Shown in pieces: positions 37,106 to 51,640 of a stretch of DNA of 64,000 bases. The stretch is from Candidatus Saccharimonadota bacterium. GTDB taxonomy: Bacteria > Patescibacteriota > Saccharimonadia > Saccharimonadales > Saccharimonadaceae. The notes beneath the pieces are model-generated. The model made no database searches and was not told the DNA's origin. It saw only the letters and a program-made list of their open reading frames with translations. The position numbers were made by a program, and so were the translations under genes. The stretch covers positions 186,001-250,000 of the forward strand of contig JAQBRS010000005.1 in assembly GCA_028286395.1 (NCBI GenBank). Direction: 5' to 3'. Numbering within the stretch: the first letter of the stretch is position 1; each line of letters begins with the position of its first letter.

Positions 37106-38116
37106 ATGGAACCTGATAAAAAATCCCCAGAGGCCCTTGAAGACCAGAAACCATCGGAAGAGCCGGTGGCTCCGTCTGATGCACTGAGCCGAACGCCGGA
37201 GGATCTTGAAGAAGAAGTAAAAGCGAGCGTTGATCCGAACGCACCGAAAGCTCCAGAGGTTAAGAAAGTTTCAGCCTTCAAGCGCATCTTCAAAAAGGTG
37301 AATATCTATTTCTTGATATTTATCCTCGTCGTTATCATTGCTGCGGTCATTGCGATCGTCAACTACCTAAATAGCCAAAAAGCGCCCGTCGTTCCATCGA
37401 CAGCAACACAGACATTATCAACTGACGCACTGAAGCAACTCGCAAATACCGACACAACCGTCGGCGACTCAACGCAAACTTTGACCATTCAAGGAAATGC
37501 CATTATTACAGGTCAAACACTGGCACGCGGAAACCTGAATGTTGCAGGTAACTTTCAAACAGGCGGAAGCATTACTGCACCAAGCCTCACCATTTCTGGA
37601 ACAACGAACTTAGGTCAAGCACAAGTCAACAGCCTGCAAGTTGCAACCAATACCGCTATTCAAGGATCAACAACACTTCGTGACTTAAGCGTTGCGGGAA
37701 CGTCGACATTCAGTGGTCCGATGACAGCTTCGCAGATTACCGTTACGAAACTTATTATTGCCGGCAACGGTGTCTTACAAGTTCCAAATCACATTAGCTT
37801 TACTGGCACGTCACCGAGTCGTACCATTAACACTAGCGTCCTAGGTAACGGTGGAACCCTCAACCTTAGCGGATCGGATACTGCAGGAACGATTAACATT
37901 ACGAGTGGTAACAATCCAACGCCTGGCTGTTTCGCGCAAATTAACTTCCAACAGGCCTACACGAGTCAACCTCGCGTCATTGTCAGTCCGGTTGGCGCAG
38001 CGGCGGGACAAACAGAATTTTACGTTACCCGTAGCACAACTAGCTTTAGTATTTGTACGGCCAACGCAGCACCAGCTAACCAAACCTTTGGCTACGACTA
38101 CTTCATCACAAACTAG
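37106..38116 (+). CDS. Membrane-anchored fibre-type surface protein
   Basis: 336 residues. Cytoplasmic N-terminus of about 65 residues rich in Glu, Pro and Lys, one span (about 68-90, IYFLIFILVVIIAAVIAIV), then a run of short repeats with the look of tail-fibre or head-fibre beta structure (TIQGNAIITGQTLARGNLNV, then TSTFSGPMTAS), and a C-terminal head with GCFAQINFQ and SFSICTAN. Type II membrane topology, fibre outside. It converges on the F1-like epsilon gene with only 3 bp between. Confidence 0.75.
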   Translation: MEPDKKSPEALEDQKPSEEPVAPSDALSRTPEDLEEEVKASVDPNAPKAPEVKKVSAFKRIFKKVNIYFLIFILVVIIAAVIAIVNYLNSQKAPVVPSTATQTLSTDALKQLANTDTTVGDSTQTLTIQGNAIITGQTLARGNLNVAGNFQTGGSITAPSLTISGTTNLGQAQVNSLQVATNTAIQGSTTLRDLSVAGTSTFSGPMTASQITVTKLIIAGNGVLQVPNHISFTGTSPSRTINTSVLGNGGTLNLSGSDTAGTINITSGNNPTPGCFAQINFQQAYTSQPRVIVSPVGAAAGQTEFYVTRSTTSFSICTANAAPANQTFGYDYFITN

Positions 38117-38119
38117 AAT

Positions 38120-38436
38120 TTAAACGTCAACGAATACAGTGACACTATCGGCTTTGACGTGCATCAGAGCGCGTGAAATCTTAATCACCTGTTCGCCATT
38201 TGGTGTTTGGATCTTTAATTCACAAGGAACCAGCATACACAAGAAGTTATGGTGATGTGGCAAGATATCAAATGGACCCGTTTCGTTAACAGCGCTAATG
38301 CTGTAGCCAGCGCCTTCGTAGTAAACCTTAAACGGCGCGTACACCTTAACTGCGATGGTGGGCTTCTTTGGATCAATGGCGGCAGCTAATGCTTGATCTT
38401 CAGTCTGGGGTGTAGCTGGAGTTTCAGCGTCAGCCA

Positions 38437-38437
<1 letters not shown>
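38120..38437 (-). CDS. F1-like ATPase epsilon subunit, N-domain only
   Basis: 105 residues. After a Pro/Ala/Glu-rich start it matches the epsilon beta sandwich: GPFDILPHHHNFLCMLVPCE corresponds to the canonical G-x-x-x-ILPGHAPLLTAL-PGE, and SVTVFVDV is the last strand. The two C-terminal helices that regulate canonical F1 are absent. Epsilon binds gamma and the c ring at the foot of the rotor. Last gene of the seven-gene operon; its start overlaps the beta stop. Confidence 0.75.
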
Positions 38438-40696
<2,259 letters not shown>

Positions 40697-40700
<4 letters not shown>

Positions 40701-42325
40701 TTCTTTGCTGCCTCCTGAATAGCATGCTCGACGCTTACGACTGCTTTGTCGGTAATTTGTACGTCCCTCGTGCCATCATCTTTGCTTGACACTGGCTTAG
40801 CAGCTGTTTCTGCGGCCGTGGCTTCATCAGTCTGACGCCTCTTCTCTTCATCGGCCTTCGCTGCTTTTTCGATAGCGGCTTTCTTGACCTCATCGATCGT
40901 CATGACCTCCGCTTTCAGTTGCGCTTCAAGCTCATCATAATTGCCCTTCATATCCTTGTCTTCTTGCAGCTTCGGTGCGTATTCATGCACCTTTTCCTTC
41001 AATAGTTCAACGTTGATAATTTCTTCAGGACTGCTTTTAAGCACGATGCCCATAAGGAATTGCTGTTCAGCAAAACTATATGTTTCACCAATACCCTGAT
41101 TCATCAATTTAAAGAGCACTTTACCCTTGTCGTAATCAGCCTGAGCTTGTGGGCTTAGTTCAGTACCGAAGTGGGCGTACTCTTCAGCCGTTCGATATCC
41201 AGCCAGGGTCAAGTTAAGTTTGTCGGCAAATCCCTTTTGTCGTTTGTTCTGGCCAACACCACCAACACGTGTCACCGACAAGGCCGTACTCACCGCTGGA
41301 CGCATGGTATCCTTGAAAATTTTCTCATCTAAAATCCACTGCCCGTCAGTAATTGACATGATGTTGGTTGGCAGATAGGCAGTAATGTCACCGCCCGGCG
41401 CATAGACAATTGGAACAAGCGTTTGGCTGGCGTGATTTGATTCTGTCTTCCCGCCACGCTCCAACAAACTAGAGTGCGTGTAGAACATGTCACCAGGGTA
41501 TGAGTCACGGCCTGGCGATACACCTGCGATCAGTGAGATTTCACGATACGCCTGGGCGTGTGCTGTCAGGTCATCGTAGATCACCAATGTGTCCATGTTG
41601 AGTTGATGCCAGAAATATTCACCATGCGCCGCACCAACGTAGGGCACGAGGTATGTAAGGATCAGCGATTCAAACGAGTTAGACACGACAACAACAGCCT
41701 TTTTGAGCGCATCATTTTTTTCCAGAGTACTGACAAGTTCCGCAACGTCGTGCTGACGTTTCGCAATCAATACATAGATGACAGTAATATCAGTGTTTTT
41801 CTGGTTGATAGCCACCGATGCGGCAAGCGCCGTCTTGCCGACCTTACTGTCACCAAGCATGGCCATACGCTGTCCACGCGCCAGTGAATATTCAAGGTCA
41901 AGAATTGTCACGCCAGTTTCAACCGGGGTATCGAGCAGTTCGCGTTCATAAAGCATCGGCGCAGAGTGAAAAACGTCCCACTCTTGGTCGGCAACGATTT
42001 CTCCCTTGCCATCAATCGGCTCGCCAAATACGTTAACGACGCGCCCGATGAAATTTTTACCAACGGGGACCATAATGTCACGTGCTTCGATAACACACAC
42101 TCCGCCGATACGGAGCGGTGAAGGATCAAGCTTCATCACCACGACGTGATCTTCAAGGACTTGGTGAACATAGCCCCGAGTTTCATCGTCAAACCGTACC
42201 GTCGCGTGAACGTTTGTCGGCTGCAGTCCTCGTACACTCACCATGAATGAATCAATACCAATAATCTCGCCGACGGGATTGCCTGCGTTAACGAGCTTTT
42301 CAAAGGCTTTAATTGCTGCTGGCAC
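40697..42325 (-). CDS. F1-like ATPase alpha subunit with C-terminal extension
   Basis: 542 residues, GTG start. P-loop GDSKVGKTA (158-166) replaces GDRQTGKTA. YDDLTAHAQAYREISLI and PGDMFYTHSSLLERGGK are alpha hallmarks, and the arginine finger is kept in LSVTRVGG. So the alpha/beta catalytic interface looks functional. A Lys/Glu/Ala-rich helical extension of roughly 70 residues follows the normal end. The start overlaps the delta-like gene by 17 nt. Confidence 0.87.
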
Positions 42326-42830
42326 GAAGTGTCTCCAGTTCCTTTACGAGTTCACCGCGTTGGCCTGCGAGGACCGCGCGCAGACTCATGTCGTGGACAT
42401 GGTTTGGTGTACGCACATAGACACCTGCAACAAGCGCTGGTTGAACGCCATCCGCAATCAGCGCTTGAGGGTGAAGTGACTCCCGCACCCATTTCGTAAG
42501 CTGTGCGAGACTTTCGTGATCCGCAGGGGAAGCAAAAGTCATGTGAATAATCGGTGCCTTATCTTTTAAGAGACGAAGCTGTTTGATAAGGTCGGCACGA
42601 TCACCGCTACCAGCTAGCGTGAGTTGGTTTTGTGATAAGAACTCTGCCAGTCCGTCAGATAATGCAGGAATAGCTGTTTCAGCTCCGCCTGCCTTAATGC
42701 GAACCTCCGCAGTCGTCATGGCATTATCGACCCACTCAATTTCAGTGACGAGACGGGATACGTCAACATGACTCACGACGCGAGATGGCAAGACAAAGTT
42801 TTCATGTGTTTTTACTTCGGTGTCGCTCAT
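42309..42830 (-). CDS. Delta-like subunit of F1-like ATPase
   Basis: 173 residues. The C-terminal half (about 90-165) matches the delta C-terminal domain: IIHMTFASPADHESLAQLTK, then PALVAGVYVRTPNHVHDMSL, close to the canonical ALIGGV-x-V-x-x-G-x-x-VIDGSV. The N-terminal part does not look like the usual six-helix delta domain that caps F1. Delta joins alpha to the peripheral stalk. It overlaps the coiled-coil gene by four bases (ATGA). Confidence 0.65.
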   Translation of the reverse strand: MSDTEVKTHENFVLPSRVVSHVDVSRLVTEIEWVDNAMTTAEVRIKAGGAETAIPALSDGLAEFLSQNQLTLAGSGDRADLIKQLRLLKDKAPIIHMTFASPADHESLAQLTKWVRESLHPQALIADGVQPALVAGVYVRTPNHVHDMSLRAVLAGQRGELVKELETLRASSN

Positions 42831-43582
42831 AGTTTCATATCGTCCAAAAGCGCTTGTTTGTTTGCTTCCATTTGCTGAATAATCGCCGGTAGCTGTGCCT
42901 TTAAGTCATACTGCTCGCTCAACGCACCAAGTAGGTAGTGTTCAATAACCTGCGCCATATTGCCTTCGAAAGCTTTCATTAATGATTCTTCTTGGGTTGC
43001 GATCTTTTTCTCGAGAGTAGCAGTCAGTTGTTCATTCTGGTCCTTCAACTCGTCAACGCTGCGATTGAGTGATTCCAGCGCAGAAGCATTGGCTTCTTTA
43101 ATTGAAGTCATGTTTTTCATGTTTTCCTGGAATGAATTTTCTAACATCAAACTTTGATTAGCAATGCTCTTTTGAAGTGTCGTACCGAGTTGTTTATGCT
43201 GTTCTTCCAAAGTCGCAGCGCTCTTCGTGAGAGATTCAAGAGCCACGTCTTGCGCCTCGTTAGCAGCTTTAGCAAATGCTGCAAACTGGCCATCGAGCTG
43301 TTTTGTGATGTGTTCTTTAAGGTCAACCGTGAGGTGAGCGATGGACGCATCAAGCTGCTCGGCTGTGCGTGTTTTGAGATCAGCACTAATCGCTTCAGAA
43401 GCATCATCAAGATCTTGTTTGAAAATAACAACATTCTCTTGAATAACCTTCTCAAAATACAAACGAGCATGATCGCGAATTTCTACGCGGAAAGCTTCAT
43501 CGAAGAAATTTTTCTCATTCTCAAAGACCTCAACCATAGGCGGCTTCTTGTCAGAGTGCTGTTTATGTTGGAATAGTCCCAC
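42827..43582 (-). CDS. Soluble coiled-coil protein in the b-subunit position
   Basis: 251 residues, GTG start. Almost entirely helical: heptad-like patterns run from about 50 to 210 (for example ALESLTKSAATLEEQHKQL, then ALESLNRSVDELKDQNEQL, an internal near-repeat). No hydrophobic segment of membrane length exists, unlike F0 b, which has an N-terminal span. Position between the c-like and delta-like genes suggests a peripheral stalk that is soluble or anchored by another protein. It begins 26 nt after the c-like stop. Confidence 0.7.
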   Translation of the reverse strand: MGLFQHKQHSDKKPPMVEVFENEKNFFDEAFRVEIRDHARLYFEKVIQENVVIFKQDLDDASEAISADLKTRTAEQLDASIAHLTVDLKEHITKQLDGQFAAFAKAANEAQDVALESLTKSAATLEEQHKQLGTTLQKSIANQSLMLENSFQENMKNMTSIKEANASALESLNRSVDELKDQNEQLTATLEKKIATQEESLMKAFEGNMAQVIEHYLLGALSEQYDLKAQLPAIIQQMEANKQALLDDMKL

Positions 43583-43608: not shown

Positions 43609-44451
43609 TCATAGCTTCAGTAGTAAATATACCGCAAATAAGCCAATAATTAAAATGAGTATACTCGTTAATATTATCTGTAATAAGGCTCTGAAAATTG
43701 ACCGTTTCGACATTGGGTTACGTCCGATCGAGATCACTCCGCTACGTACCCCTGAATAAAGGATAGCGATGGCAGAGATGATGCTGATCGCCGTAATTGC
43801 CATACTGAGGTAAATCCGGATTGGGCTCACTTGCTTTTCAGCGATGGCAACTCCAATTCGTTCAAGAAACGGTGGGACATCGACCTTGGTCGTCTTTTCA
43901 TTCGGATTATGCTGAATGTTCACTGTCACGGGAATGAGTCCCAGTGCCACCGTTTTGGTCGTCTTGCCCGTTGTATCTTTTAGAGTCGTTGTGCCGACTG
44001 TCACACCCTTGCCGTCAAACGCACTAGCAGCACGACCAAAGACTGTTTTCTCATCCGTGCCAGCCTTCATGCCCACACCATTTAGTGATGAAAGGGTAAT
44101 GTAATCACCGACCACAATTGGACCAGCCTCGGTGCTGACCAGAACATTGTAAGTTCCTGATACCGCCACGAAGACTTCGTTCTTTAGTGCATCGTTTGAG
44201 GAGGAAACGAGTAATTGCGTTCGATCAACTGTGACGCCGAACATGTTATCGAGCTGCGCTTGCGTCGATACTTTAACAGTATTTCCATTCTTGCTATCCA
44301 ACTGAACAATCGTTCCGTTATCGAGCGCAGAGTCCGCAGCATACCCTTGGACATTTCCACCCCCGTAGGTCGCAGCTGAAACAGGCAAAGACGTGGTCGC
44401 GACCACACCGATGACGATCGCCAAACTAAGAATAATTCGTGATACTTTCAC
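43609..44451 (-). CDS. Secreted-domain protein ending in an F0 c-subunit-like hairpin
   Basis: 280 residues, GTG start. Signal peptide 1-26 (SLPVSA end). An extracellular beta-rich domain at about 33-146 (GYAADSALDNGTIVQLDSKN, VSTEAGPIVVGDYITLSS, GVGMKA) resembles the C-terminal head domain of CPR fibre proteins. Then two spans: about 212-234 and 253-278, joined by SGVRSGVISIGRNPMSKRS. GRNP (243-246) equals the c-subunit polar-loop motif R-Q/N-P, with c-like topology (both ends outside, loop inside). The ion-binding Asp/Glu of span 2 is absent; Ser263/Thr262 occupy that place. First gene of the operon, where atpE would be. Confidence 0.7.
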   Translation of the reverse strand: MKVSRIILSLAIVIGVVATTSLPVSAATYGGGNVQGYAADSALDNGTIVQLDSKNGNTVKVSTQAQLDNMFGVTVDRTQLLVSSSNDALKNEVFVAVSGTYNVLVSTEAGPIVVGDYITLSSLNGVGMKAGTDEKTVFGRAASAFDGKGVTVGTTTLKDTTGKTTKTVALGLIPVTVNIQHNPNEKTTKVDVPPFLERIGVAIAEKQVSPIRIYLSMAITAISIISAIAILYSGVRSGVISIGRNPMSKRSIFRALLQIILTSILILIIGLFAVYLLLKL

Positions 44452-44640: not shown

Positions 44641-46245
44641 ATGACTGTGTGGTTCACCTCCCTCACTATTTTTAATCGCCGGTATGCATTGCGTGTAGCA
44701 ATGATACTTGCCCTATGTGTTGCTTTAACTACAACGCTGTTATTTGGTATTATTTCACAACCTACGCACGCGCTTGCGGGCACGAATAGTACGATCAGTT
44801 TCCAGGGGCGACTCCTTGATGCCAGTGGCTACGTTGTTCCAGACGGCAACTACAACATCCAATTTAAGATTTATCAAGATGGAACAGGCACCGCAACAGG
44901 TAATCCCGACGGAACGCTAAAATGGACCGAGAACTATGTCAACAATGGTGGCACTAGTGGTGTTCAGGTGAAGAACGGTTACCTTTCGGTCAACCTTGGT
45001 GAAAGGACACCATTCGGTACCAGCGTCGATTGGAACCAAGATACCTTGTGGCTGTCGATGAACATCGCTGGCTCATCGACCAGCTGTACGACCTTTGGTA
45101 GCTCACCCTGCGTATCCGACGGCGAAATGCTTCCAATGAAGCGACTGACTGCGTCACCGTATGCAATCAACTCTGGCATGCTTGGTGGTATTACCTCTGA
45201 CGGATTTATCCAAAACACGACTTCCGTGCAAACAGCCAGCCTCAATATCTCCGGAAGCGCTCAAGCGAATACGCTTCAAGGTAACACGAGCGTCATCTCA
45301 CCACTAATCGATAGCACGTCGTCGGGCACGTTAAACGTCGGAACGGTAACTGCTTCGACGATCAATATCGCAACGAATAATGCCGATCATACGATAAACA
45401 TCGGCACAGGAGGTGGAACGACCGCACAAACCGTCACGATTGGATCCACAACGGGCAGTGGTGGAACGACAATTCAAGGTGGTACTGGCGATGTTACGAT
45501 TACCTCCGGTGGTGCAACCAGCGCAACATTCAGTGGCACACAAGTAAAGATCGGGGATAATACAGGAACACCAACGCTACTGACACTCGATAGCGCAACA
45601 TCTGCGCCAACCGTCGACAGCTCAATGGTTGGGAGCATGTACTACGACACAACGCTTGGACAACTACAGTGTTACGAAGCTGAAGGCTGGGGTGCTTGTG
45701 CCGCAAGTCCTGACGACTTTATCACTATCAGCCCTGAATACAGCAATGCTGTTATGCACAATACCGGTACTGGTACGATGACTTCTGACCTTTGTTCTGA
45801 CGCATTGAATATCAATGACGGTAGTTCATCACAACCAACCATTTGTGGTACCGACGAAACCTACAACTACTACAACTGGACATCTTCACAAGTCACTAGC
45901 CAAGCCCGAAGCATCTACGTTACCTACCAATTGCCGACAAGCTTTAAGGGCTTCGTGTCTGGATCAACCTCACTCATGGGCCGAACTGACAGTTCTGATG
46001 CAGCCGTTTCTTACCAAGTCTACCGCAACAATTCTACGACTGGGCTCACGGCCTGTGGCTCAGTCGTTTCGGTCTCATCAGGAGCACAGACCACCTGGCA
46101 AAAAGGCACTGCAACCAGCACTTCTGACCCGGCAACCTGTAGCTTTGCCGCTGGAGACAGTATCGTCTTCAAGGTCAACCTGACGTCAGCGAACGATGCC
46201 AACGCCTACGCAAGTACACTTGGCTTCGCATTCAGCAACCACTAG
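44641..46245 (+). CDS. Secreted fibre-type surface protein
   Basis: 534 residues. N-terminal signal/anchor (about 17-38), then the CPR surface module beginning ISFQGRLLDASGYVVPDGNY and ending LTASPYAINSGMLGG. A repeat stretch follows with GTLNVGTVTASTINIATNN and TVTIGSTTGSGGTTIQGG (tail-fibre-like beta repeats), a stem ending MVGSMYYDTTLGQLQCYEAE, and a C-terminal cysteine-containing beta domain. Divergent from the F1-like operon, it is a candidate partner of the surface domain of the c-like protein. Confidence 0.75.
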   Translation: MTVWFTSLTIFNRRYALRVAMILALCVALTTTLLFGIISQPTHALAGTNSTISFQGRLLDASGYVVPDGNYNIQFKIYQDGTGTATGNPDGTLKWTENYVNNGGTSGVQVKNGYLSVNLGERTPFGTSVDWNQDTLWLSMNIAGSSTSCTTFGSSPCVSDGEMLPMKRLTASPYAINSGMLGGITSDGFIQNTTSVQTASLNISGSAQANTLQGNTSVISPLIDSTSSGTLNVGTVTASTINIATNNADHTINIGTGGGTTAQTVTIGSTTGSGGTTIQGGTGDVTITSGGATSATFSGTQVKIGDNTGTPTLLTLDSATSAPTVDSSMVGSMYYDTTLGQLQCYEAEGWGACAASPDDFITISPEYSNAVMHNTGTGTMTSDLCSDALNINDGSSSQPTICGTDETYNYYNWTSSQVTSQARSIYVTYQLPTSFKGFVSGSTSLMGRTDSSDAAVSYQVYRNNSTTGLTACGSVVSVSSGAQTTWQKGTATSTSDPATCSFAAGDSIVFKVNLTSANDANAYASTLGFAFSNH

Positions 46246-46991: not shown

Positions 46992-47615
46992 CTACTTCGC
47001 AGATTTCTTGTAGTTGGCGATTGACTGTGCAACTTTACCGTCTGGTTTTAGATTCTCGTAGAAGAGTACTTGGTTCTTTTCGAGGATCATCGAATCTTCA
47101 GGGCCGTGGACCTCAGAACCAAGCTTGATTAGTTGAACACTGCTACTTTGATCTGTTGCAGTTTTTTGCAAGCTTGTGTTGCTTGTGTCGGCCGTCTGTG
47201 TTTGCAGGTAGAAGATATCGGTTAACTTCATAGTGTCATTATTAAATGCCTGCAGTTTACCGAAATACACCTGACCGTTCGTAAAGAAGACGGCCTGATA
47301 TTTGCTGGTATCGATGCCGGTTGGACCGGACGCATGGCTGTTTGACCATGTCGTCCATCCAATGAAACCAAGGGCTAAGATAACAACGAGTACGATAATA
47401 GAAATGATCAGCTTCTTGAGGCTTCTCTTTTCCCTTACGGTTCGTCGTGGTTCTTCAGATCGATATACAGTTTTAGGTTCCTCTTTAACTATAGGTTGTT
47501 GCGGTTCTTCTGACGGCCGGCTTGCCGCTTCAGATCTGCTTGCAACTCTTCTATTGTCTGCCGGTTGTGGCACACGAAACGGTCCCCCATCCATGTCTGT
47601 ATTTCTCCAATTCAC
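46992..47615 (-). CDS. Single-pass hypothetical membrane protein
   Basis: Up to 207 residues. Pro/Arg/Glu-rich cytoplasmic segment of about 65 residues, a span (LIISIIVLVVILALGFIGW), and an external domain with YQAVFFTNGQVYFGKLQAFN and a C-terminal KKSAK. Domain organisation mirrors the convergent gene at 46280. Start uncertain: GTG 47615, or ATG 47594 with GGAG 10 nt upstream. Function unknown. Confidence 0.65.
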   Translation of the reverse strand: MNWRNTDMDGGPFRVPQPADNRRVASRSEAASRPSEEPQQPIVKEEPKTVYRSEEPRRTVREKRSLKKLIISIIVLVVILALGFIGWTTWSNSHASGPTGIDTSKYQAVFFTNGQVYFGKLQAFNNDTMKLTDIFYLQTQTADTSNTSLQKTATDQSSSVQLIKLGSEVHGPEDSMILEKNQVLFYENLKPDGKVAQSIANYKKSAK

Positions 47616-47685: not shown

Positions 47686-50676
47686 CTATTGTTGGTACTG
47701 CCGTTGCAGGTATGCATTGTAGGTTGGCGTCTGCTCACACATTGTTTGCGATTGACACACGCCACCGTCAAATGTCGCGTAAGCCAAGAATGCCTTGGTC
47801 TTATCAGCAAGATCTTTACCCGATACATTCGGCGCCCGCTCACGAATCGGATAGCCGATGTAGTGATTCAATGGTGTCGTGCTTTGGTTCACGTACCTCC
47901 CAAACGCATCGTTCACGTACCTACCAACGCTAATGTGATCTTCATGGTCATGGTACATATGTCCCATATCGCTTGAAGCCTGCGTATTGATAACGGTTGG
48001 CAGATAGTAGTCCATCAGTGTTGCGAGTGCCTGAGTGAGATCTTCAGATGAATAGTAGGACTGCTCGTCAACTGTTTGAACCTTTGAAACATTTCCCGCT
48101 CGTAACCGCGCCAGGCTTTCGAAGCCAGATACTTTATAGCCCTGACCCTGTAAGTTTCCGTCGGGTAAGTTCATAAATATCAGTGCGATTTCTTTGTGTC
48201 CCCGAGGACTCGCAATGCTTACAAATTCGTGGTCACTCAACTTGACTGTTTTTTGAACCCAGACAAGTGGCTCACTCACATGGAGCATAGAATCGTACGC
48301 AGCCTCAGAAGCCCTCTCACGCCCCAGCCAATACTGGCTTCCAAAGCCTGCATCGCCAGCGGTAATGTACACCGTTCGAATACAGTGTTTCGCATCAATG
48401 TCATGCTGAAGATCGGGATTCATAAAGAGGAGGTCATCATCTTCATGCGCAACAATATTCATAATTGCAGCACCGTCCGCACAATCAACAACCGGTGTTG
48501 CTTGTTGGGCAGTTGTTGTTGGCAAAATCGTCGCCGTTCGAGAAAGCCCCGTCAAACTATGATTTTTGTTCACGCCACCATCATAAAAGAGGAGAAGTTC
48601 TTGAGGATTTTCATTCGTTCCCGAAATGAGTGTGCTCGCGTTTGGACGACCATACGCCTGAATCACTTGATCGATCGAACACGCTGGATAGTCCGTCACA
48701 CTCTTATCGAGACTTAAGAGATACGTAAAGCTGTGTTGCTGAAAGTCCTTTTGCCACGCTTCGCTTGTCAGTGACGCGCGAGGGGTCGTACAATCACCCA
48801 GCGGCACGATATGCGTCGCCGTCTTCGGATTGATCTGGCTAATAGGAACCACTCGCCAGTAATCTCCAACCAGTACGTTTGTTTTGTGGCTTTGAATCGC
48901 ATCAGCAATCTTGACATTACGAACATTAATAGAGTGAAGTGCATCCGTCTGTTGTTGATACGTTGCAAATGCCCACACTGATCCAATCACAATCCCAACT
49001 AGCAGTACGACAGTGACTTTATTCACGGAAAACTTCGAAAGTGACTTTGTTCGCAGATATGTCATGATCGAGATTGTCAGCGCAAAGAAAACAATCGTTT
49101 CATAGCGTGAGTCGACAGGATAATAGTGGTTTGTCCCAATAAAGATTCCTACTGCAACGACCGACGTCGCGATCAATGTCAGTGAGAGCAGTGCTGCAAC
49201 ACTGAGTTCGGGCTGTTTCTTACTGCGCTTGTTTTGTTTGGCTGGGCTCAGGCTCTTAGCGAAGATAACGATAGCCGAGAACGCACCAGCGACAAAGACC
49301 AACCCATTAATGACGACAGGGATAATAATTGGCGAAACAAGACGACCAAAGAAAGTCTTCGGAATATCCTTCACAACGCCAATATCAAACGCCGGGTTCG
49401 CACCAAAGTTCGTCAGTAGCCCCGTGAATGCGAAGATAGACCCTAGCACAATTTGCTTCACTGTCAGCGCTAAGCTGTATGGAGTATTGTCACCTACTAC
49501 ATGCGTAATGCCCACAATATTCATTACCCATAGGAAAATAGTTGCAATGATAAACGAAGCAACGGTGACGACAAGCCATCGAAGTGCTACTTTCACCAAC
49601 TCCCCTCGTCGAGCAATCAGATACACAACAAACATTATTCCCGCTCCACCGAGTGAAAGCCACAAGAATAACTTATCACTACTAATAAGCAGTGTTAGAA
49701 GTGCAATCGCCCAGTAGCTCTGCCTACTCCGTAGTCTTGGGGCGCGAATAACAAGCACGAGACCAAGAATGTAAAACAGATATTCAATATTGCGAGTTGC
49801 CAGCATCGCAAAGTTAACAGGCAATAGTCCGCCGGCGTGTGGCTGAGCAGGAATAAACAACAAGATACAAGCGAGGGCCAGGAAAACTGTTCCGATAACC
49901 TTCGGACGCTTATCGATGCGGTATAAAATATACGCCAATCCTGCGATCGTCACGAGGCTTACCAACACAGTCAATACAACAAGTCCAGCGGAACTGAAGT
50001 TCATTAACCGTTCAGTAATAAACAGTGGCCACTTAATCAGGAACGTATGCGTCGCAGGAAATAAGGCCGCTTTGAACGTTTCAGTGTTTTGAAATAGGTA
50101 GCTATCAATAATCTGGTCAGCATTGGTACTCTGTGTTAGTGCGCCAAGTGTCGACCACCAAGTAGTTGTAATGAATAGTATCGCAGCCGAAAAGATAACG
50201 TACGGCGATTTAAAACTGCTAAACTGCGTTTTGATTCGACTAAGAAGTGTCGGTGGTTTTTTGGCTGGTCGTCCGCGATGCTTTGGCTGTACTACTTTAA
50301 AAATGAAGGCCCTGTATATTCCGTAATTCCACAGCGTAATAATCGCAATTGCTACCGTACGCACCACAAAGACGGATGCCGTTCCAGAAAAGAACGCGAC
50401 CAGTCCAAGACTAAAGAAATAATTCCATGCTGCCAGTAAGCCATAAATGACCAGCTGTTTCCCGACTACTTTCGCCGCTTTATCGTGATTCTTAAATGTG
50501 ATGATCTTCTGCAAAATGAAGGCGGCGACAAAGCCAATCCAGAAACTAATTGCGACCGACAATACATCAGAGAAATGAAGGAACTCTTTAAAAATGAACA
50601 ACGACGCCATTTCGATCAGGAAAGAAGTTCCGCCGACAACAAGATACGTGATGAACTGGCAATATTTTTTTAACAT
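47686..50676 (-). CDS. GtrA-like flippase, polytopic domain and PIG-L deacetylase in one chain
   Basis: About 996 residues. Residues 1-135 are a GtrA-like domain (four spans; FITYLVVGGTSFLIEMASLF and WNYGIYRAFIF). About 150-590 is a second polytopic region of 10 or more spans, possibly GT-C-like. From about 743 comes a PIG-L/LmbE domain: VAHEDDDLLFMNPDL (canonical AHPDDE) and HDHEDHISVGR (canonical HPDH-x-x-x-GR). Topology puts the deacetylase outside. ATG 50676 follows the GT2 stop after one base; an ATG at 50715 is a less likely start. A role in lipid-linked sugar flipping, transfer and deacetylation is inferred. Confidence 0.78.
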   Translation of the reverse strand: MLKKYCQFITYLVVGGTSFLIEMASLFIFKEFLHFSDVLSVAISFWIGFVAAFILQKIITFKNHDKAAKVVGKQLVIYGLLAAWNYFFSLGLVAFFSGTASVFVVRTVAIAIITLWNYGIYRAFIFKVVQPKHRGRPAKKPPTLLSRIKTQFSSFKSPYVIFSAAILFITTTWWSTLGALTQSTNADQIIDSYLFQNTETFKAALFPATHTFLIKWPLFITERLMNFSSAGLVVLTVLVSLVTIAGLAYILYRIDKRPKVIGTVFLALACILLFIPAQPHAGGLLPVNFAMLATRNIEYLFYILGLVLVIRAPRLRSRQSYWAIALLTLLISSDKLFLWLSLGGAGIMFVVYLIARRGELVKVALRWLVVTVASFIIATIFLWVMNIVGITHVVGDNTPYSLALTVKQIVLGSIFAFTGLLTNFGANPAFDIGVVKDIPKTFFGRLVSPIIIPVVINGLVFVAGAFSAIVIFAKSLSPAKQNKRSKKQPELSVAALLSLTLIATSVVAVGIFIGTNHYYPVDSRYETIVFFALTISIMTYLRTKSLSKFSVNKVTVVLLVGIVIGSVWAFATYQQQTDALHSINVRNVKIADAIQSHKTNVLVGDYWRVVPISQINPKTATHIVPLGDCTTPRASLTSEAWQKDFQQHSFTYLLSLDKSVTDYPACSIDQVIQAYGRPNASTLISGTNENPQELLLFYDGGVNKNHSLTGLSRTATILPTTTAQQATPVVDCADGAAIMNIVAHEDDDLLFMNPDLQHDIDAKHCIRTVYITAGDAGFGSQYWLGRERASEAAYDSMLHVSEPLVWVQKTVKLSDHEFVSIASPRGHKEIALIFMNLPDGNLQGQGYKVSGFESLARLRAGNVSKVQTVDEQSYYSSEDLTQALATLMDYYLPTVINTQASSDMGHMYHDHEDHISVGRYVNDAFGRYVNQSTTPLNHYIGYPIRERAPNVSGKDLADKTKAFLAYATFDGGVCQSQTMCEQTPTYNAYLQRQYQQ

Positions 50677-50677
50677 T

Positions 50678-51640
50678 CTATTCGATCCGTTTTGAGCGCG
50701 CTCGATCAATAACATACAGTGGGCGATGTTTGCTTTCGGTATGAATGTGCGAAATGTAAATTGCGAGAATACCCTGTGAAATCAAGATAATACCGACAAA
50801 GAAAAGAAGCAGAATGCCGAGCATCGCCGTTCCCGTAAACTTCCACATCAGTGGGTCGTGCAGCAACAATTGTTCGATAATCACCGTGATACCGACGACA
50901 AGTGCAAGCACCGTCAAGATAACGCCCAGGTAGCCCAAAAGGTACAGTGGCCGAGGGCTTATCGATACAATGCTATTCATCGCAAGCTGAATGAGCTTGC
51001 GTTGGCTATAGCCGGGCTTACCGACAGCTCTTTCCTTTTCGATATACCTTACATACGCACGTTTAAATCCAAGCCAATCAATCAGCGCGCGTGTCATGCG
51101 ATTCGATTCCTCAAGCTTCAGAAACTCTGCCTGGACCTGCTCATCGATTAATCGAAAATCAGTCGACTGAGGAATCAGTTTCTGAGAAGAGAGTCTGTTA
51201 AAGAAAGAATAGAATAGTTTAGATTCGATAGTTTTCAAAAGACTCGCGTTCGAAGCCCTCCTTATACCAATAACGACCTTAGCGCCGTCTTTCCAGGCAG
51301 CGACAAATTCGGGGATTAATTCAACGGGATGCTGTCCATCCCCATCGAGCGTGATGATCGCTTCACCTGTTGCATATGTAATGCCAGCAGATAAGGCACT
51401 TTCTTTGCCAAAGTTGCGCGAGAATAAGATCGTTTTAACAGTCGCGTCTTTGTCGGCAATCTCAGAAAGTACTGCTGCTGACGCATCACTACTACCGTCT
51501 TCACAGTAAATAATTTCATAGGACACTGCAGGACGAAGTGATTTCAAAACACCAACGAGGGATGCATGAAAATCAACTAATCCATCAGCTTCGTTGTAGA
51601 TCGGGACAACGAGAGATAATACGGGTTTATGCGTAGTCAT
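50678..51640 (-). CDS. GtrB-like polyprenol-phosphate glycosyltransferase (GT2)
   Basis: 320 residues. GT2 features: LSLVVPIYNEADGLVDF, YEIIYCEDGSSDAS, and the DGDGQHP (DxD) site, acceptor region STDFRLIDEQV, then two C-terminal spans. This matches GtrB/DPM1-type enzymes that load a sugar onto polyprenyl phosphate on the inner face. Its partner flippase domain (GtrA) is encoded by the next gene, one base away. TATTCT with TGT extension ends 7 nt before ATG. Confidence 0.88.
   Translation of the reverse strand: MTTHKPVLSLVVPIYNEADGLVDFHASLVGVLKSLRPAVSYEIIYCEDGSSDASAAVLSEIADKDATVKTILFSRNFGKESALSAGITYATGEAIITLDGDGQHPVELIPEFVAAWKDGAKVVIGIRRASNASLLKTIESKLFYSFFNRLSSQKLIPQSTDFRLIDEQVQAEFLKLEESNRMTRALIDWLGFKRAYVRYIEKERAVGKPGYSQRKLIQLAMNSIVSISPRPLYLLGYLGVILTVLALVVGITVIIEQLLLHDPLMWKFTGTAMLGILLLFFVGIILISQGILAIYISHIHTESKHRPLYVIDRARSKRIE

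Follow-up and report, generated by a model that had tools for sequence, protein, structure and literature searches.

A subunit c homologue lacking the ion-carrying acid heads a second F1-type operon in Patescibacteria and may serve as the rotor of a surface motor

Many Patescibacteria probably possess, beside or instead of the normal ATP synthase, a second rotary ATPase that turns or pulls surface structures and is not an ion pump. Its putative rotor is the product of a gene, here called X, found in the window (the whole 64,000-nucleotide stretch of DNA that was analysed), where it occupies positions 43609..44451 of the minus strand, reading from a GTG start at 44451 to 43609, and encodes 280 amino acids comprising a signal peptide, an outer domain resembling phage capsid-decoration proteins, and a hairpin resembling subunit c of F-type ATP synthases that is free of the ion-carrying acid. 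The best explanation of the full set of findings, to which we assign a probability of roughly 55%, is that X supplies the rotor ring of a dedicated F1-type motor that hydrolyses ATP without transporting ions.

X is the first gene of a seven-gene operon, all on the same strand and separated by at most 26 bp or overlapping slightly, whose order, c-b-delta-alpha-gamma-beta-epsilon, is canonical, with X in the position of atpE. It is followed by genes for a b-like coiled-coil stalk protein of 251 amino acids (42827..43582), a delta/OSCP-like subunit (42309..42830; weak matches to PF00213 and the NCBIfam delta model), F1 alpha-like (40697..42325), gamma-like (39834..40700) and catalytic beta-like (38437..39834) subunits, and an epsilon-like subunit of 105 amino acids (38120..38437), matched by PF02823 in its N-terminal beta-sandwich only. 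Subunit a, the 12-helix protein of certain mycoplasma clusters (see below) and export-gate genes are all absent from these seven genes. X thus heads a complete second F1 operon, a point absent from the earlier note made from the DNA letters: the same genome carries on another contig a separate canonical operon with c (PF00137, E 2e-12), a (PF00119, E 1e-38), alpha and beta. In a quick tree of beta sequences, those of X operons fall on one side and those of canonical patescibacterial operons and Escherichia coli on the other, with 100% SH-aLRT support. The catalytic residues are intact, both in beta (GGAGVGKT and GER) and in alpha (P-loop and arginine finger), and the two subunits also score with FliI/SctN models. 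The (Y/F)EP segment of gamma, which in E. coli contacts the loop of subunit c, is kept in the gamma-like protein (E209 and P210 in 50/50 sequences, Phe or Tyr at 208 in 50/50), as are G31 and H39 of epsilon (47/47). In nearly all other clades the b-like protein carries a membrane helix at its N-terminus; the clade to which the window belongs has lost this helix.

At the level of sequence profiles, the hairpin of X is a homologue of F-type subunit c. The earlier note, made from the DNA letters, had proposed c-subunit topology for residues 212-278, and the AlphaFold2 model agrees: in it the exported beta-rich domain is followed by two long helices (210-244 and 249-279), so that the hairpin spans residues 210-279 (43615..43824) and encloses a polar loop of the (A/G)R(Q/N)P type, a feature of c subunits. 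The profile comparison with c subunits proposed there also returned matches. A hidden Markov model (HMM) of 47 hairpins from the class to which the window belongs had one match in the PDB, ATP synthase subunit c 9itj (E 0.11), gapless across both helices, and its nine best non-family matches among 4382 ORFs were all canonical c subunits; in the reverse search with a c HMM, X proteins were the main next group behind true c and V-type c. When 18950 NCBIfam models were scanned, the one matched by most hairpins was F0F1 subunit C (9/47, best E 3.2e-5). A profile of 28 hairpins from other patescibacterial classes gave clearer results: all 23 non-family matches listed were canonical c subunits (best E 7e-11), and aligned with hhalign to the c profile it reached P 2.8e-9 and a probability of 96% over 69 columns, against a weak P of about 5e-4 to 6e-4 (probability 28%) for the profile of the window's class. 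The strongest evidence for c homology thus comes from profiles of relatives in other classes and not from the window's own. Pfam scans of single X proteins did not reach the ATP-synt_C cut-off, and a direct scan of the window's X protein alone gave no match. With Foldseek, the modelled hairpin matched experimental c-subunit structures to about 2 Å (TM-score by target 0.75-0.81, probability 0.9-0.97, E about 1). Because a two-helix fold alone is not diagnostic, we base the identification on the sequence profile, the loop and the operon position taken together.

The ion-carrying acid has been lost throughout the family. In an alignment of 109 X relatives from Patescibacteria, with 17 canonical c sequences for comparison, the loop (residues 243-246; 43714..43725) reads GRNP in 101/109 and its proline, Pro246, is invariant (109/109). 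Canonical c subunits carry Asp or Glu 18 residues after this proline in 17/17 sequences, in line with the spacing of about 17-18 given in the earlier note; the counterpart in X, residue 264 (43660..43662), is Ile in the window and an acid in 0/109. That note had read GRNP at 243-246 and Thr262 and Ser263 within a second span lacking Asp and Glu, all of which holds, and the orthologue alignment that it suggested yields constant acid loss together with retention of GRNP. No membrane-central acid emerged after alignment, residues 259-274 being free of acids in every one of the 109 sequences. The sole partly acidic site nearby, position 258 (Pro+12; Glu in 28/109, Gln in 39/109 including the window's X), is neither conserved nor membrane-central, and Thr262 occurs in 35/109. 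The GxGxGxG zipper by which helix 1 packs in c-rings is not kept in X, which has another small-residue pattern instead, and ring formation is therefore not assured. Two sequences with other loops were also seen: an X relative without nearby F1 genes (L108 7913-8755) has the very ARQP loop that is typical of c subunits, and a 116-residue ORF (L011 4873-5223) combines a hairpin with an ARRP loop and scores 10.5 bits with the c profile, possibly by chance.

X-type matches occur in 111/245 genomes of the window's class, a few of them consisting of the outer domain only, inside giant proteins, and full-length X is also present in many families beyond this class, where F1-like genes adjoin X in nearly all of the loci inspected. 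Among the genomes with the operon is the complete one of the Saccharibacterium TM7i (CP075337). The order X-b-delta-alpha-gamma-beta-epsilon was found in 45/87 loci, most of the remainder being partial versions of it, and about ten copies of X have no F1 genes nearby. Extra copies of this last kind (L087, L090, L091, L098, L100, L105, L107, L108) mostly lie beside a long fibre protein of 280-2700 amino acids. When the window's X protein was used to scan bacterial and archaeal genomes more widely, all matches were to Saccharibacteria or to unassigned MAG records apart from a single chance match, the rejected Lachnoclostridium locus L028, where the peptide IGRNPMSK falls within an unrelated protein. 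In 17 X-carrying genomes, all at least 92% complete, neither canonical c (PF00137) nor a (PF00119) was detected. The acid and subunit a are both needed for ion movement and both are missing from the X motor; the earlier suggestion that the membrane part moves no ions is thus strongly supported, the absence of subunit a, which extends to these 17 whole genomes, adding to the loss of the acid.

The exported part of X was described in the earlier note as an extracellular fibre-head domain. Export is borne out by the signal peptide and the beta-rich domain, but the likeness is to phage capsid-decoration proteins more than to a fibre head. With residues 34-184 (43900..44352) as Foldseek query, such proteins were the best PDB matches (E 4e-5 to 1e-3, probability 1.00), namely those of Borrelia BB1 (8pkh), Pam3 (8hdt), Sf11 (9ocb), HFTV1 (8qsy) and XM1, along with the phi29 gp12 tip, and the Pfam model of the XM1 gp53 minor capsid protein (PF23982) has weak matches among divergent X relatives. 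X and the phage proteins appear to have this predicted fold in common; X differs in being cellular, membrane-anchored and fused to a rotor-like hairpin. Similar domains are found in giant surface proteins throughout Patescibacteria. An HMM of the outer domain matched no giant fibre proteins under default filters and, with filters off, revealed a copy at residues 2812-2926, just ahead of the C-terminal head, of a 3090-residue fibre protein encoded directly after X in locus L072 (5932-15204).

Genes for surface proteins flank the operon. Convergent with epsilon on the plus strand lies Fib (37106..38116), a single-pass membrane protein with a beta-solenoid and a C-terminal beta head (..FGYDYFITN), predicted to form a solenoid fibre that is anchored in the membrane and ends in a lectin-like head, the fold of both fibre and head being of low confidence; structure searches related it, weakly, to phage tailspikes, a pyocin tail fibre and Helix lectins. 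A fibre of this type is the usual neighbour of the X operon. The Fib head domain is present in a single copy in the window's genome, beside the X operon, and across the 245 genomes of the class the Fib head accompanies X in 94, X only in 17, Fib only in 2 and neither in 132, a co-occurrence slightly inflated by shared ancestry and by the few outer-domain-only X matches in giant fibres. The link between Fib and the motor is one of genomic association only. A fibre-like single-pass protein is encoded near 63/87 motor loci against 0/13 canonical ATP synthase loci, the latter being somewhat shorter. Outside the class, some neighbours of the motor are giant fibres that carry a MerR-like helix-turn-helix on the cytoplasmic side; in four such cases (L141 1-2484, L143 9983-13714, L146 166-8619, L149 2-2641) this domain is joined through one membrane helix to a long beta-rich fibre, and the gene adjoins the X-F1 operon. 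Upstream of X in the window, a divergent gene on the plus strand (44641..46245) encodes an exported surface protein, no more than a probable partner of X, with counterparts in the form of similar single-TM proteins divergent from X in many orthologous loci. A family of small single-pass proteins with the C-terminal pattern ..VLF.ENLKPD.KV....NYKK is represented near the motor operon both in the window (46992-47615) and in L072 (15303-15806), and could possibly be a further motor component. The window also encodes a 1009-residue protein (47686-50715) in which a GtrA-type membrane domain is joined to a PIG-L deacetylase domain.

For the proposed motor we infer ring assembly, rotation, Fib binding and biological purpose as follows. 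Copies of X would form a ring in the membrane, bearing on its outer face a crown of decoration-protein-like domains, and ATP hydrolysis by alpha3-beta3 would turn gamma-epsilon and this ring against the b-delta stalk; the crown would rotate, twist or tension surface fibres (Fib in the window, giant ones elsewhere in the phylum), and this motion would probably serve attachment to host cells or movement on them. What has been kept, that is, the catalytic sites, the gamma foot, the loop on which it docks and the b/delta stalk, has to be set against points that count against the motor, among them the loss of the zipper, the copies of X without F1 genes, and the loss of the b-like membrane helix in the window's clade. 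The first two of these, with the loss of the acid and of subunit a, would also fit the rival view of X as a static anchor or as part of a decaying ATP synthase duplicate, its c subunit having become a surface protein no longer turned by F1; we consider this unlikely, given that the alpha and beta catalytic residues, the loop and the gamma foot are conserved and the operon order is kept over the whole phylum, and simple decay in particular is disfavoured by the intact catalytic residues.

Two other readings were weighed. An F1-like ATPase docked at the membrane by its c-like part might energise export or assembly of the adjoining giant surface proteins, as FliI/FliH/FliJ do in flagellar export, a scheme in keeping with the relationship of the F1 and stalk parts to export ATPases (hence the FliI/SctN scores of alpha and beta) and with the giant single-pass fibre proteins that adjoin many copies of X. 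Yet the operon contains no export-gate genes and, as for rotation, retains a full delta, the c-like parts and a gamma foot of the (Y/F)EP type, and Fib-type proteins, with a single N-terminal helix, should be inserted through Sec, so that we rate export about as improbable as a static anchor. Less probable still is an unconventional ion-moving Fo using Glu/Gln258 or Thr262 with a subunit a encoded elsewhere: Glu258 does occur in some relatives and the window's genome does encode a canonical a, but 258 is Gln in the window's X and variable in the family, Thr262 is confined to about a third of sequences, and the X genomes without detectable a already disfavour it. On this last ground, sharing of canonical subunit a by the X motor as a general rule was rejected.

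The proposed ion-free rotary motor has partial precedents. The Type 2 and Type 3 F1-like X0 ATPases of mycoplasmas are second F1 motors tied to surface machines (the gliding motor; the MIB-MIP partner); their clusters encode a 12-helix protein but no recognised homologue of b, delta or c, and one X0 protein combines a signal peptide with a large soluble part and a C-terminal pair of membrane helices (PMC3369863, PMC12994834). Common to these and the X motor are an extra F1-like ATPase beside the normal one, a seven-gene cluster, the lack of an ion-moving Fo and a link to surface proteins, but the X motor has a b-like protein, delta and a true c homologue and no 12-helix protein; the comparison of X with MMCAP2_0577/MMOB1650 is by description only. 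The two are best read as analogous motors, built differently. With the canonical F1Fo subunit c (PF00137), X has in common the hairpin topology, the (G/A)R(N/Q)P loop, the operon position and, in its partner, the gamma foot, whereas it lacks the ion carboxylate and the glycine zipper, is fused to an exported part of 200 residues and has no accompanying subunit a. N-type (alternate) F1Fo ATPases likewise amount to a second F1Fo operon per genome. They keep subunit a and an ion-binding c, both of which functions are missing from the X motor. In open-licence papers we found no description of this patescibacterial motor.

About 30% of sampled CPR bacteria lack a canonical ATP synthase complex (PMC10656485), and the X motor, if real, may explain some genomes with F1 genes but no ion-moving Fo. 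More tentatively, at somewhat under even odds, X may define a phylum-wide class of rotary ATPases in which the c-ring was turned from an ion turbine into a transmembrane drive shaft that spins a virus-coat-like crown and fibres, an engine of attachment or motility for episymbionts and, in some lineages, the sole F-type machine left. If true, this would be a natural uncoupling of a rotary motor from ion flow with the ring retained, which would allow the rotation of the ring to be examined apart from ion transport, and it would provide a candidate surface motor for Patescibacteria, a phylum in which little is known of the machines for attachment and motility.
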